A DNA stretch of 64,000 bases from Candidatus Avelusimicrobium gallinaceum. GTDB lineage: Bacteria > Elusimicrobiota > Elusimicrobia > Elusimicrobiales > Elusimicrobiaceae. Below are positions 3 to 56,790 of this stretch, one piece after another. A program made the position numbers and the translations under genes. Numbering within the stretch: position 1 is the stretch's first letter; each line of letters begins with the position of its first letter. The notes beneath the pieces were generated by a model. That model ran no database searches and was not told where the DNA came from. It saw nothing but the letters and a program-made list of their open reading frames with translations. Where the stretch lies: NCBI GenBank assembly GCA_944324965.1, contig CALUYH010000008.1, forward strand, positions 1 through 64,000. Direction: 5' to 3'.

Positions 3-1097
3 GTCCGCTCGGTAAAAGCCGCACGCGAAAAAGCCCCCAAATGCATTTGGTGCGGACGCACTATCACCGACGAAAACCAATACACCAAATGTCCGCAGGA
101 CCCCGACGTGCTCTGCTGCCCGGGCAAACAAACCGCTGCCCCGGCCGCTACCTGCGTGCGCTGTGGGGAAACCTACCACCGCGGCCAACACTGCAAAGCC
201 GCCGATTACAACGCTTTGTGCACCACCCAAGCGGAAGAAAAGCAACCGTCTTCTTCCGGCCGCGTAGACAATCCGTTTTTTAAAGGCGGCGACCCGCACA
301 ACGACGCCAATTACGAAAAATGCCGCACCTGCGGAGAACCGATTACCGATGAACGCCTCTACCGCCGCTGCCCGCAAGATCCGGATGTAGTGTGCCTGCC
401 CGCGCCGAAAGACGTTTCCAAGGATTACACCTGCTACCGCTGCGGTAAAAGTTTCCGCCCCGGCCAACACTGCAAAGCCGCCGATTACAACGCTTTGTGC
501 ACCACCCAAGCGGAAGAAAAGCAACCGTCTTCTTCCGGCCGCGTAGACAATCCGTTTTTTAAAGGCGGCGACCCGCACAACGACGCCAATTACGAAAAAT
601 GCCGCACCTGCGGAGAACCGATTACCGATGAACGCCTCTACCGCCGCTGCCCGCAGGACCCCGATATATATTGCCGCCCTGAAACCCAACCGAAGGACAG
701 CCGCTATCACTCCAATAATCCGTATTACAAAGGCGGGGACCCGGCCGACCCAGCCAACTATAAAACCTGCCAATGGTGCAAGCAACCCATCACGGATGAA
801 AGATACGGCCGTGCCTGCCCCAAAGACCCGGATGTCCACTGCCTGCCCGCGCCGAAAGACGTTTCCAAGGATTACACCTGCTACCGCTGCGGTAAAAGTT
901 TCCGCCCCGGCCAGCACTGCTCCGCGGCCGATTACAATGCTTTCTGCGCCAAAGACGCCGAACAGGAAAAAGCGTTAGAAAAAGCGGAACAACAACGCCG
1001 GGAACAAGCCGCCAAAGCGTCTCGTTGCCCCAAATGCGGCGCAAAATACTCTATTGACGAAATCTACGACGGTGTTCCCCACATTTGCCACAAATAA
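3..1097 (+). CDS. Cys-rich zinc-ribbon repeat protein (5' end outside window)
   Basis: The frame is open from base 3, so the start and any signal peptide lie upstream; a GTG at 108 is internal. The protein is a chain of small Cys modules. Four A modules read KCxxCGxxITDExxYxxCPQDPDVxC and three B modules read TCYRCGKSFRPGQHCxAADYNALC, followed by a C-terminal module RCPKCGAKYSIDEIY ending HICHK. Linkers NPFFKGGDPHNDANYE separate them. Paired CxxC knuckles suggest zinc-ribbon or rubredoxin-like folds. The next gene has the same modules behind a clear signal peptide, so this protein is probably exported too. It contains an exact internal DNA duplication. I recognise no known family and assign no function. 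Confidence 0.8.
   Translation, partial: VRSVKAAREKAPKCIWCGRTITDENQYTKCPQDPDVLCCPGKQTAAPAATCVRCGETYHRGQHCKAADYNALCTTQAEEKQPSSSGRVDNPFFKGGDPHNDANYEKCRTCGEPITDERLYRRCPQDPDVVCLPAPKDVSKDYTCYRCGKSFRPGQHCKAADYNALCTTQAEEKQPSSSGRVDNPFFKGGDPHNDANYEKCRTCGEPITDERLYRRCPQDPDIYCRPETQPKDSRYHSNNPYYKGGDPADPANYKTCQWCKQPITDERYGRACPKDPDVHCLPAPKDVSKDYTCYRCGKSFRPGQHCSAADYNAFCAKDAEQEKALEKAEQQRREQAAKASRCPKCGAKYSIDEIYDGVPHICHK
182..655 (+). repeat. Exact 195-bp tandem duplication, 279-bp period
   Basis: Bases 182-376 recur without a mismatch at 461-655. The period of 279 bp equals 93 codons, so each copy adds one B module plus one A module in frame. The copies diverge immediately outside. Absence of even synonymous changes implies recent duplication or ongoing gene conversion. 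Confidence 0.9.
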
Positions 1098-1852
1098 CCG
1101 GCAGAGAATTTTAAAAAGGCCTATTTTCTAAATAGGCCTTTTTTATGTTTTCAATTAGGTCCAAAGACTCTTTTTTGGACCCTATTTTTTTATCATACTA
1201 AAGGTAAGCAGTAAACTTTTGTAGCCAATGGAGAAATCTATGAAAAAACTGTCTGTCCTTCTGTTGTTAGCAGTTGCCGTTTGTGTTGCACCGGCCGCAT
1301 ACGCCCAACGCCTTGCAGGGAGCGGCCCGAAACCGATTGAAAAATGGTCCGATCCGTTAAAGAAGAAAGATGATATGCAAAAATTTGGCAATAACATCAT
1401 CCGCCAAGTACAAAAAGCCCAAAAGGCCTATGAACAACAAGCCAAGGCCAAAGAGCAAAACAAGGAATTCTTTAAAGAGGCGGCCGAGAAAATCTCTTTT
1501 TCCACGCTTGCAGATCACGAATCTCAACCCAGAGAACAAGATACCGACCGCAACCCTTATTTTAAAGGCGGCGATCCGCACAACGACGCCAATTACGAAA
1601 AATGCCGCACCTGCGGGGAACCGATTACCGATGAACGCCTCTACCGCCGCTGCCCGCAGGACCCGGATGTAATGTGCCTGCCCGCGCCGAAAGACGCTTC
1701 CAAGGATTACACCTGCTACCGCTGCGGTAAAAGTTTCCGCCCCGGCCAGCACTGCTCCGCGGCCGATTACAATGCTTTCTGCGCCAAAGACGCCGAACAG
1801 GAAAAAGCGTTAGAAAAAGCGGAACAACAACGCCGGGAACAAGCCGCCAAAG
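863..1852 (+). repeat. 155-bp identical tract shared by neighbouring genes (863-1017 and 1698-1852)
   Basis: The last B module and following Glu/Lys/Gln-rich linker of the first gene (863-1017) are base-for-base identical to 1698-1852 in the second gene, offset 835 bp. Flanks differ. This supports tandem gene duplication with conversion between paralogues. Confidence 0.85.
1113..1144 (+). terminator. Rho-independent terminator
   Basis: The stem GGCCTATTT/AAATAGGCC is flanked by an A-run and a T-run just after the stop at 1097. Confidence 0.85.
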
Positions 1853-1932
1853 ATTCCGTCTGCCCCAAATGCGGCGAAGAATACTCTATTGACGAAATCT
1901 ACCACGGCGTTCCCCACACCTGCCATAAATAA
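1240..1932 (+). CDS. Secreted Cys-rich zinc-ribbon repeat protein
   Basis: A 230-aa protein starting at ATG 1240, chosen because GGAG (1230-1233) sits 6 nt upstream; an in-frame ATG at 1228 overlaps that site. Residues 1-22 form a Sec signal peptide ending AAYA-QR. A Lys/Glu/Gln-rich helical stretch (about 25-90) follows, then linker NPYFKGGDPHNDANYE, one A module (CRTCGEPITDE...CPQDPDVMC), one B module (CYRCGKSFRPGQHC...C), a charged linker, and the CPKCGEEYSIDEIY...HTCHK tail. It looks like a one-unit version of the upstream protein. Its own terminators on both sides suggest an independent transcript. Metal binding is inferred from the CxxC pairs; function is unknown. Confidence 0.85.
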   Translation: MKKLSVLLLLAVAVCVAPAAYAQRLAGSGPKPIEKWSDPLKKKDDMQKFGNNIIRQVQKAQKAYEQQAKAKEQNKEFFKEAAEKISFSTLADHESQPREQDTDRNPYFKGGDPHNDANYEKCRTCGEPITDERLYRRCPQDPDVMCLPAPKDASKDYTCYRCGKSFRPGQHCSAADYNAFCAKDAEQEKALEKAEQQRREQAAKDSVCPKCGEEYSIDEIYHGVPHTCHK

Positions 1933-1947
1933 CCGGCAGTAAATTTT

Positions 1948-1980
1948 AAAAAGGCCTATTTTCAAAATAGGCCTTTTTTT
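1948..1980 (+). terminator. Rho-independent terminator, near copy of the one at 1113
   Basis: The stem is GGCCTATTTT/AAAATAGGCC with a T7 tail. It is almost identical to the terminator of the preceding paralogue, so the duplication unit included the terminator. Confidence 0.85.
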
Positions 1981-2006
1981 CTAAAAAACTTGGGTCCAAA
2001 GGCCCT

Positions 2007-2034
2007 TTGCAAAACCGTTCATTTTGACTACACT
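2007..2034 (+). promoter_or_regulatory. Putative sigma70-type promoter for the gene at 2078
   Basis: -35 TTGCAA (2007-2012), 16-nt spacer, -10 TACACT (2029-2034). The following GAGGTAAG resembles the sequence ahead of the previous paralogue. Confidence 0.45.
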
Positions 2035-2077
2035 AGAGGTAAGGGAAGTAGGAACATTACAGATTTACGGAGGAAGG

Positions 2078-2743
2078 ATGAAAGCAATTTCTAAAATGCT
2101 AGTTGCATTAACCGCAGTTGTTTTGGCCGCGCCGGCTTTTGCCCAATCGCGCGACCCGCACGCCGGCGAACAGTGGTCCTTGGGTGCCAAAGCCGACAGC
2201 CAGTTGGAACGCTCTATCGTAAGAGCTGCGCAAAGCTCGCAGCAGCGCCACGATGAAGGTCTGCTCCACCAGGCCGAAGCCCTGTTGCAAAAAGACCGGG
2301 ATGACCACGACGGCTACGCCAAGCACACCTTGGAATACTATTACGACTTGCTTAAATCCGGCCGCCAGCCGGCGGGCGAAGCCGTTACCACGCCCGACCG
2401 CGACCCTGCCTTGCTCCACCAGGCCGAAGCCTTGCTGCAAAAAGACAGAGAAGAACACGACGGATACGCCAAACACACGCTGGACTATTATTACAAGGTC
2501 GTATCGGAACAGGGCGCAAAAGCCGCTCCCGCCAAAAAGACCGAATACTGCATTTACTGCGGGAACCCGATTGTGAAAGACTACCAAAAATGCCCGGCGC
2601 AGGAATTGGCTCCGTGCCGCTCCACCTGCCCCGATTGCGGGAAGGATTTAAACAATCCCAAACACTTGATTAACGGGGAACACCGCTGCCGCTTTAAAAC
2701 GCGCATCACGCCCGTAGCCCCCAAAACTCAAGAAAACAAATAA
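2078..2743 (+). CDS. Secreted protein with duplicated HQAEALLQKDR repeat and C-terminal zinc-ribbon-like module
   Basis: ATG 2078 is preceded by a strong GGAGGAAGG; the longer frame from 2024 lacks a site. The signal peptide covers residues 1-23 (ending AFA-QS). Two imperfect repeats of about 45 residues each contain LLHQAEALLQKDR, then HDGYAKHTLxYYY. A Cys-rich tail has CIYCGNPIVKDYQKCP, CPDCGKDLNN and a final HRCRF. It is the third consecutive gene for a Cys-rich protein, though its N-terminal repeat differs from the others. Family unknown; structural metal binding by the tail is inferred. Confidence 0.8.
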   Translation: MKAISKMLVALTAVVLAAPAFAQSRDPHAGEQWSLGAKADSQLERSIVRAAQSSQQRHDEGLLHQAEALLQKDRDDHDGYAKHTLEYYYDLLKSGRQPAGEAVTTPDRDPALLHQAEALLQKDREEHDGYAKHTLDYYYKVVSEQGAKAAPAKKTEYCIYCGNPIVKDYQKCPAQELAPCRSTCPDCGKDLNNPKHLINGEHRCRFKTRITPVAPKTQENK

Positions 2744-2891: not shown

Positions 2892-4241
2892 ATGATTCAA
2901 AGAAATGCTGAAGAAAAGGAAAAAATTAAAGAAATTTTGGCGGCGGCCGAACGCAATAATATCCAAATCATTAAGCTGTGGTTTGTGGATATTTTGGGGA
3001 ATTTAAAGTCGCTCTCTCTTTCGTACCGGGAATTTGAATACGCTATGAATGAAGGTATGGGGTTTGACGGTTCGTCCGTGGAAGGGTTTGCCCGCTTGTA
3101 TGAATCGGACCTGGTGGCCCTGCCGGATTTGGACACGTTCCAGATGTTTCCGCCCGATTTGACCGGCGCGCCGATTGCCCGCTTCTTCTGCGATATTAAA
3201 ACTACCGACGGGGAGCAATTTGAAGGGGACCCGCGCTACATCTTGAAAAAGAACCTGGCCGAAATGAAAAAAGCCGGCTTTGACCAATTTATGGTCGGCC
3301 CCGAGCTGGAATACTTCTATTTTAAAGACAACAAACACCCCGAAACGCTGGATTGCGGCGGCTACTTTGACACCATCCCGCTGGATTCTTCCTACGCCGT
3401 ACGCCGCCAGACGATGCAAATGCTGGAAAAGCTGGGCATCCACGTGGAATACTCCCACCACGAAGTAGCCCCCTCCCAGCACGAAATTGACCTGCGCTAC
3501 GACGAAGCGATGAAAATGGCCGACCAGGTCATCACCTACCGCACGGTCGTCAAGCAAGTGGCGGCGTTAAACGGGATGTATGCCACCTTTATGCCCAAGC
3601 CGTTGGCCGGGGTGAACGGCAGCGGTATGCACGTGCACCAATCGCTGTTTGCCAACGGTTCCAACGCGTTTTTTGACGCCAAGGACCCGCTGTACCTTTC
3701 CAAAACCGCCCGCCACTATATTGCCGGCATTTTGGCCAACGTAAAGGAAATCTGCTCCGTTACGGACCAGTGGGTAAACTCCTATAAACGCCTGGTGCCG
3801 GGCTTTGAAGCCCCCGCCTACATCGCCTGGGGCCGCAAGAACCGCAGCGCGCTGGTGCGCATTCCGCAAGCCAAACAGGGCAAACCCAATGCCACCCGCA
3901 TTGAATGCCGCTTCCCGGACCCGGCCTGCAACCCGTATTTGGCCTTTGCCGTAATGCTGGGCGCCGGTTTAGACGGCATTAAACGCAAGCTGGAAGCGCC
4001 GGCCATGACGGAAGAAAATATCTTCCAGATGACGCCGGAAGAACGCAAAAAACGCGGAATTGATACGTTGCCCGCCTACCTGTACGAAGCCGTGAACTGC
4101 ACGCGCCATTCGGAACTGGTACGCAAAGTGCTGGGCGAACATACGTTCAACAAATTCATTGCCAACAAAGACATTGAATGGGACAACTACCGCACCCACG
4201 TGTCCAGCTACGAATTGGAGAAATACCTCTCCGTACTGTAA
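2892..4241 (+). CDS. glnA: Glutamine synthetase, type I
   Basis: A 449-aa enzyme condensing glutamate and ammonia to glutamine with ATP. ATG 2892 is chosen because AGAGGA lies 5 nt upstream; an extension to 2826 has no such site. Signatures are GFDGSSVEGFARLYESD in the N-terminal beta-grasp domain, the metal-binding VGPELEYFYF, the ammonia/glutamate site NGSGMHVHQSL, KRLVPGFEAP and NRSALVRIP. The length of about 450 fits the GSI-alpha subgroup, and I see no clear NLYDLPP adenylylation motif, so regulation by adenylylation is unlikely (inference). It is monocistronic between two terminators. A TACAAT at 2829-2834 could be its -10 box, but no convincing -35 is visible. Confidence 0.96.
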   Translation: MIQRNAEEKEKIKEILAAAERNNIQIIKLWFVDILGNLKSLSLSYREFEYAMNEGMGFDGSSVEGFARLYESDLVALPDLDTFQMFPPDLTGAPIARFFCDIKTTDGEQFEGDPRYILKKNLAEMKKAGFDQFMVGPELEYFYFKDNKHPETLDCGGYFDTIPLDSSYAVRRQTMQMLEKLGIHVEYSHHEVAPSQHEIDLRYDEAMKMADQVITYRTVVKQVAALNGMYATFMPKPLAGVNGSGMHVHQSLFANGSNAFFDAKDPLYLSKTARHYIAGILANVKEICSVTDQWVNSYKRLVPGFEAPAYIAWGRKNRSALVRIPQAKQGKPNATRIECRFPDPACNPYLAFAVMLGAGLDGIKRKLEAPAMTEENIFQMTPEERKKRGIDTLPAYLYEAVNCTRHSELVRKVLGEHTFNKFIANKDIEWDNYRTHVSSYELEKYLSVL

Positions 4242-4619: not shown

Positions 4620-5822
4620 TTAATCAGCTGCCACGCACCGCAGGATTTTGCCAGTGCCACCGATCTTCGGTTCATACGTATAATCCGTTTCAGAGCACAG
4701 GGCACCCGTAGCAATTGCCGGGTCCGAGCTGTGGCATTCAGCAGAAGTCGTACTACCCATACAAGCCGAATCTCCGAAATTCGTTCCGCACGGGCAGAAG
4801 CACATTTGCTGCACTAATTCAGCACCGCAGCCGGAAATAGAAGCCGGCTCTTTCAAACAAACATAGGAACAGGAGGGAGACGAAGGATCACAGTTCGTAT
4901 CGCACAGTGCCTGATCCGTCGTGCCCGTCGGGCAATCTTTAATGCCGTTATACGGGTTGGTATAGGTGGTTTTCACTTTTCTTACGTCCCCTCTATACGG
5001 ATTGCGCTTCATATTCCAACCGCACATCCCGCAGTCCGGTATGATTTCAAAATCTTGTACCTGTGTAATTTCATCTGCATACGTATAAAATACGTTAGAA
5101 GAATGATCCACTTTTTGTTTCCCGTAATTATTGCGTACAATATAGGAAATACCACCGCACTTTTTGGCGGCTTGCACCGTTTTGATTTCCGGTTTAAACT
5201 TATAGGTCGGGTCCGTAATTTCTACCGAGCCGCCCACACTCTTTAACAAGTAAGACGTATAAGAACCGCCCGATTCCTGGCAGTTGCCTTTGTCATCACA
5301 GACATAGTCCTTGTTGTAGATATTGCTCCATTCCAATTCTTCCCCGGAGCCTTGGTTGATCGTTTGCACTTTGCCGGGAATCGTCAAGTTCGTCGTTTTC
5401 GCCCCTTGCAGCATCACGTCATTGGTGTACAAGGTATTGGTCACGTCACTTTTCGGTTGGGAAGCAGACCCAAAACCCACCTCATTGGCCATCAGCCTGC
5501 CACCCTTAATGGAACCGCCGCCATACATCAATACGCTCGTGGCAATTCGGTACTCCGGCACGTTTCCGCCCATCGTAGTAGAAGGCTGCAATACCAGGTT
5601 GCTCACGTAAGCATTGGCCCCGTTGACCGTCATCCGGCCTGCACCTACGCGGGTGTTACAAAAGTTCACAATGGGTGCTTCGGCATACACCAGCGGGTGG
5701 ACGGCCTCCAGCTGGGCAAACGTCCCCACCGGGGAAGACAAGGTGGTAATAAACTTCATTTCTTCCGCGTTGCCCACGCAAACGCCCATCGTTAATAAAA
5801 ATAATACGAGAAGTTTTTTCAT
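4620..5822 (-). CDS. Secreted Cys-rich protein, unknown function
   Basis: A 400-aa protein with signal peptide (residues 1-19, ending GNA-EE) and a strong GGAGGAG ribosome site. The middle is beta-rich and low in Cys. The C-terminal half holds many Cys: CGMCGWN, CPTGTTDQALC, CSYVC, CFCPCGT, and others to a terminal CVAAD. Many Cys in an exported protein suggests disulfides. Architecture (short signal, AEE start, glycine-rich middle, Cys-rich end with CPCGT/CPSGT-like turns) resembles the frameshifted gene at 47.1-48.3 kb, so the two may be paralogues. It lies just after the T4P operon but has its own promoter-like -10 and terminator. No known domain recognised. Confidence 0.75.
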   Translation of the reverse strand: MKKLLVLFLLTMGVCVGNAEEMKFITTLSSPVGTFAQLEAVHPLVYAEAPIVNFCNTRVGAGRMTVNGANAYVSNLVLQPSTTMGGNVPEYRIATSVLMYGGGSIKGGRLMANEVGFGSASQPKSDVTNTLYTNDVMLQGAKTTNLTIPGKVQTINQGSGEELEWSNIYNKDYVCDDKGNCQESGGSYTSYLLKSVGGSVEITDPTYKFKPEIKTVQAAKKCGGISYIVRNNYGKQKVDHSSNVFYTYADEITQVQDFEIIPDCGMCGWNMKRNPYRGDVRKVKTTYTNPYNGIKDCPTGTTDQALCDTNCDPSSPSCSYVCLKEPASISGCGAELVQQMCFCPCGTNFGDSACMGSTTSAECHSSDPAIATGALCSETDYTYEPKIGGTGKILRCVAAD

Positions 5823-56720: not shown

Positions 56721-56733
56721 CCCGCTTTCACTC

Positions 56734-56761
56734 TTGCGAAAAACGCCCAAATCCGTATACT
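56734..56761 (+). promoter_or_regulatory. Promoter for the RDD fusion gene
   Basis: -35 TTGCGA (56734-56739), 16-nt spacer, -10 TATACT (56756-56761), then GGGAGG and ATG 56791. Confidence 0.55.
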
Positions 56762-56790
56762 ATAAGTAACTTGTACGGGAGGTATGCGGT

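Follow-up and report, generated by a model that had tools for sequence, protein, structure and literature searches.

Genes and export signals

What kind of protein is encoded by three adjacent, cysteine-rich genes at the beginning of a contig, and on which side of the membrane does it act? This question is raised by the left end of the 64,000-nucleotide stretch of DNA analysed here (the window), whose position 1 is also position 1 of contig 8 in the source genome (G000:C8:1). An earlier note on this DNA described the proteins as likely exported arrays of metal-ribbon modules, which grow by duplication of whole modules, and considered them a candidate surface or metal-handling system. Coordinates below are window positions on the + strand unless stated otherwise.

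Gene 1 (3-1097, 364 amino acid residues visible) has no visible 5' end because the contig begins inside it. Gene 2 (1240-1932) starts with MKKLSVLLLLAV and gene 3 (2078-2743) with MKAISKMLVALT. The signal peptides reported earlier for these two genes are both present by inspection, at 1240-1305, ending in AYA-Q, and at 2078-2143, ending in AFA-Q, and are of the Sec type. The earlier note had named a first gene lacking a signal peptide as an observation that would speak against it. However, the intact orthologues of gene 1 in two relatives, G013 (L027:3776-4543) and G020 (L028:6670-7566), begin with MKNHRWVVA(V/A)LAALVVSMPVFAQ, which is a clear Sec signal peptide. On this basis genes 1, 2 and 3 are all predicted to encode exported proteins. 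Signal peptides are likewise seen by inspection in the family members with an intact 5' end. A terminator-like hairpin follows each gene, at 1113-1143, 1948-1978 and 2751-2772; the second is a near copy of the first, as had been noticed before.

Module architecture and comparison with known families

Gene 1 has the module order A-B-A-B-A-A-B-D, with module A (CxxC..C..C) at 42-116, 321-395, 600-674 and 768-842, module B (CxxC..HC..C) at 153-221, 432-500 and 879-947, and module D (CxxC..HxC) at 1026-1088. The order in gene 2 is A-B-D (1603-1677, 1714-1782 and 1861-1923). Gene 3 consists of two helical repeats H (2262-2344 and 2412-2494), followed on their 3' side by a C-terminal double ribbon, E (CIYCG..C..C, 2549-2617) and F (CPDCG..HxC, 2627-2689), which is present as a single pair. 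The description of three adjacent genes built from the same CxxC modules holds for genes 1 and 2 with their A+B modules, while gene 3 has E+F and no A+B modules.

No match of these proteins reaches the cut-off in Pfam, and in NCBIfam none lies above the curated cut-off (best 16.7 bits versus 37), in agreement with the earlier statement that no family could be recognised. The earlier note was right about the nature of the proteins, which look new. The best Pfam match is the DksA/TraR C4 zinc finger (PF01258), with 23.2 bits on gene 1, and also 18.0, against a gathering cut-off of 24.9; with the whole-protein dksA model the score is 14.1 bits, for a cut-off of 115.5. The spacing of this finger, CxxCG..I..ER...C..C, is like that of module A. 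However, the match covers only 16 residues, and DksA/TraR proteins are cytoplasmic, with a coiled coil and a single C-terminal finger, whereas the genes found here encode signal peptides and tandemly repeated modules. The double ribbons Zn_ribbon_6, DZR and Zn_Ribbon_1 likewise have two adjacent CxxC knuckles per pair, and their matches are far below cut-off. To our knowledge these double ribbon families do not form exported tandem arrays. A strong match to a cytoplasmic zinc-ribbon family, which the earlier note had also listed against itself, was not found, and such a family is ruled out by the signal peptides and by the sub-threshold Pfam and NCBIfam scores.

The AlphaFold models of the A-B-D protein and of gene 3 have a mean pLDDT of 87.5 and 90.0, respectively, from shallow alignments, with a pTM of about 0.5. 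This combination is as expected for small units that are predicted to be well formed and to have no fixed mutual arrangement. No solved structure matched these models in fold searches of the PDB with Foldseek and VIA-align. The top Foldseek rows are LIM-domain and RING proteins, in which strings of small zinc modules serve as scaffolds, but with E > 2, a probability of 0.05 or less and no VIA-align match, and no homology is claimed. Sequence searches of the PDB gave weak eukaryotic zinc-finger matches only, which were taken as an effect of composition.

Cysteine ligands

In 41 proteins of the family 203 four-ligand modules were counted, and these contain 742 of the 794 cysteines. As in zinc ribbons, each module has a CxxC knuckle and four Cys/His ligands whose spacing is fixed. 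The knuckle is CxxCG in 193 cases and CxxCH in 6, and a multihaem c-type cytochrome is ruled out by these counts. At the position of its fourth ligand, module B has Cys in 68 cases and His in 5, and nothing else; the five His swaps all come from two related genomes. A His is invariant in modules B and D in the B+D alignment; module F, like D, also has an invariant His among its ligands. The exchange of Cys and His at one position is usual in metal sites and not in disulfides; the pattern in module B appears to fit metal coordination better.

It is important to consider here that the four cysteines of a module might instead form two disulfides that stabilise an exported repeat protein. The proteins are indeed exported and cysteine-rich, and the exported type IV pilins of G000 also carry cysteines, often in even number, in a comparison of few exported proteins. 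This reading is nevertheless rather improbable in view of the invariant His of modules D and F, the swaps from Cys to His at one fixed site of module B, and the dominance of CxxCG knuckles. In addition, no DsbB or VKOR was detected in the 66 genomes of the genus, with positive controls, and DsbA was above cut-off in only one of the 66. That these oxidases went largely undetected favours free thiols in the modules, although the exported pilins do carry cysteines. The metal ribbons of the earlier note are supported indirectly, by the ligand pattern, the Cys-to-His swaps, the missing Dsb oxidases and the confident AlphaFold modules.

An exported DsbA/DsbC-like protein with a thioredoxin fold is encoded elsewhere in G000 (L135:7719-8666, contig G000:C7); it gives a weak DsbA match and has CPYG in place of a CxxC site.

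Module duplication and homogenisation

The two exact repeats reported earlier were confirmed. A block of 195 bp within gene 1 is present at 182-376 and again, at a spacing of 279, at 461-655, and a block of 155 bp is identical between gene 1 (863-1017) and gene 2 (1698-1852). Repeats of this length and exactness rule out chance or low complexity as their source. Exact in-frame repeats also occur in unrelated members of the family, with 247 bp in G081 and 95, 93, 92, 77 and 75 bp elsewhere, in accordance with the proposed growth by duplication of whole modules. The proposed homogenisation between neighbours, seen in the 155-bp identity, is also found in G013, where genes 1 and 2 agree at 99.2% over their final 258 bp, while their identity to the G000 genes is only 85-89%. 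Separate lineages have thus each homogenised their own neighbouring genes. Both processes, the in-frame duplication of modules and the homogenisation of neighbours, recur in several species.

The contig begins within a repeated gene, and the repeats could in principle be an artefact of metagenome assembly. This is extremely improbable, however, as exact in-frame repeats of a similar kind, and identical module orders, are seen in genomes of the genus that were assembled separately. At the codon level synonymous and nonsynonymous changes are about equal in number, while nonsynonymous sites are three times more numerous. These counts suggest selection that is relaxed or mildly purifying and not strong diversification, and give no specific support for a host-facing role.

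Distribution and genomic context

With the B+D profile the family is detected in one Elusimicrobiota genus, which we take to be gut-associated from its phylum, in 32 of the 66 genomes; among about 275 other Elusimicrobiota genomes there is only one marginal match. The E+F/H profile has the same distribution. The family is therefore restricted to one genus and is not convincingly found elsewhere in the phylum. A scan of bacterial and archaeal contigs, which detects close relatives only, gave three loci, two in Elusimicrobiales and one on a contig of an uncultured bacterium. No relatives were found in plasmids, phages or IMG/VR viral contigs, so that a phage, plasmid or viral origin is rejected.

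The genes occur at two loci. Locus I, which contains genes 1-3, is bordered on one side by lon-clpP together with the gene of a small helical protein that is exported. On the other side its neighbour in many genomes is the glutamine synthetase gene glnA; in the window glnA (2892-4241) is the right-hand neighbour, a position conserved in several relatives. Locus II lies between a gene for a tRNA-editing domain and a gene for an RDD membrane protein. It is an empty gap of 70 bp in the window (56721-56790, no strand) and is occupied by a Cys-module gene in G001, G008, G010, G015 and G019.

In sister genomes without Cys modules other exported repeat proteins are found at the pre-glnA site. Those of G016 and G070 carry H repeats, and gene 3 is 36% identical to the G016 protein over 154 residues; other, unrelated repeats also occur there. 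The Cys modules appear from this to be one among several module types that locus I can hold. An example of a repeat unrelated to the Cys modules is the exported protein of G088 at this locus (L085:2951-3427), with the repeats YIKGPEGRMMDLG and YLMGREGHMMQLG.

The proximity of lon and clpP could be taken to point to an extracytoplasmic redox-switch chaperone or thiol sensor comparable to Hsp33 and Ruc, in which oxidation would release the metal and expose a client-binding surface. Ruc (Rv0991c) has a small four-Cys zinc site with which the modules may be compared, but it is cytoplasmic and single-site, in contrast to the exported arrays found here. It is a redox-regulated zinc-ribbon chaperone of Mycobacterium with such a site, and zinc-ribbon redox chaperones are thus known (PMC7448276). 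A function of this kind is nevertheless very unlikely for the present family: lon and clpP have a context of their own and are read from the other strand, no helper domain was recognised, and the turnover of modules and their absence from half of the genus are unlike a housekeeping chaperone.

A common promoter box

By comparing upstream regions a box of 15 bp, AGGYCCAAAGRCYCT, was found, which is an imperfect dyad (AGG.CC...GG.CCT) with a -10-like sequence about 22 bases downstream. It is present upstream of gene 2 as AGGTCCAAAGACTCT (1157-1171) and upstream of gene 3 as GGGTCCAAAGGCCCT (1992-2006); a sigma-70 scan found no consensus promoter for these two genes. Of 36 family genes 34 have the box upstream, compared with only 2 of the 389 other genes in a sampled genome, both of which encode signal peptides. 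With at most one mismatch it is found in all 16 genus genomes searched, at 1-12 sites each, and the reversed control gave 0. In ten other genomes stray matches occurred in two, where the reversed control strays as well.

An exported gene follows the box at 17 of the 22 sites examined, and a glycosyltransferase operon at 4. G000 has six sites, five of them before exported proteins. Two of these proteins are encoded by window genes; the others are a ChaN/TraB-like protein, an ankyrin-like protein and a trypsin-like protein in which Cys occupies the nucleophile position. The remaining site precedes a glycosyltransferase-deacetylase operon. With regard to a possible zinc-responsive control of the Zur type, the exported genes that share the box are not metal genes. 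The G000 sites beyond the window are C1:152683, C3:109446, C5:74707 and C21:16800. A role as an RNA hairpin was considered and rejected, since positions 4 and 11 do not covary and C-A and T-G combinations are common; a DNA site seems more likely for this reason. The box is genus-specific and activator-like in position, and it marks a putative regulon of exported proteins and the glycosyltransferase/deacetylase operon. It is newly found and gives a first entry point to a secreted-protein regulon in a phylum that has been little studied.

The trypsin-fold protein under the box at G000:C5:71700-75700 (L138) is exported and matches PF13365 with 31.9 bits; its motif GLCGAP suggests a Cys nucleophile.

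Proposed role

Could the arrays serve to handle metal? Beyond the ligands themselves nothing was found that supports the metal-handling role suggested earlier, and the gene order, the common box and the exported neighbours argue for a secreted-protein repertoire rather than metal handling. An extracytoplasmic zinc buffer or store, in which the array would hold many Zn2+ ions and its capacity would scale with module number, agrees with the large number of independent four-ligand sites, which reaches eight in a single protein, and with the varying copy number. We regard it as unlikely, however: neither locus is linked to genes for zinc uptake or efflux, the neighbours being lon, clpP, glnA, the tRNA-editing domain and RDD; the partners under the box are protease-like, ankyrin-like and ChaN/TraB-like proteins and not metal genes; and about half of the genus lacks the Cys modules altogether.

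Export signals, module architecture, duplication with homogenisation, restriction to one genus and the common box were seen directly. To account for them we propose, at about even odds, a family of exported, metal-folded, multivalent scaffolds within a secreted-protein regulon, of which the metal binding and the function are inferred. Each protein would be made up of a signal peptide, a short basic helix of amphipathic character and a string of modules that varies between proteins. The modules, of about 25 residues, would each probably be folded by their four Cys/His ligands around one Zn2+ or similar ion, so that the protein would resemble beads that are pinned by metal and joined by flexible linkers. 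Because module DNA is nearly identical, unequal recombination and gene conversion would change the number of modules and swap them between adjacent genes. A putative activator acting at the shared box would switch on the Cys-module genes together with other exported proteins. The products would most likely serve as multivalent scaffolds for binding, either within the envelope or extracellularly, and belong to a secreted repertoire that changes fast. More tentatively, the regulon under this one new box and the zinc-pinned modules, built and reshuffled at a fixed locus by recombination, might together form an interchangeable kit for binding proteins that are secreted or located at the surface.

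Zinc ribbons are normally found inside cells, while here they would form an exported, recombining array in bacteria apparently without disulfide oxidases. This suggests that metal-pinning might be another way of stabilising small extracellular modules in anaerobes.

Other exported proteins

The small helical protein of locus I, which is exported and encoded between clpP and the Cys-module genes, is conserved at nine loci (L027:4697-5278 and relatives); it is box-driven in G013 and has no Pfam match above cut-off. Another exported, box-driven protein, in G007 (L152, G007:C5:100-4100), has no Pfam match, and its motif MYRG...FASRNP resembles by eye those of ADP-ribosyltransferase folds. In the window an exported cysteine-rich protein of 400 residues, also without a Pfam match, is encoded at 4620-5822 on the - strand, next to a predicted MA-type metallopeptidase and a pseudopilin-like cluster.
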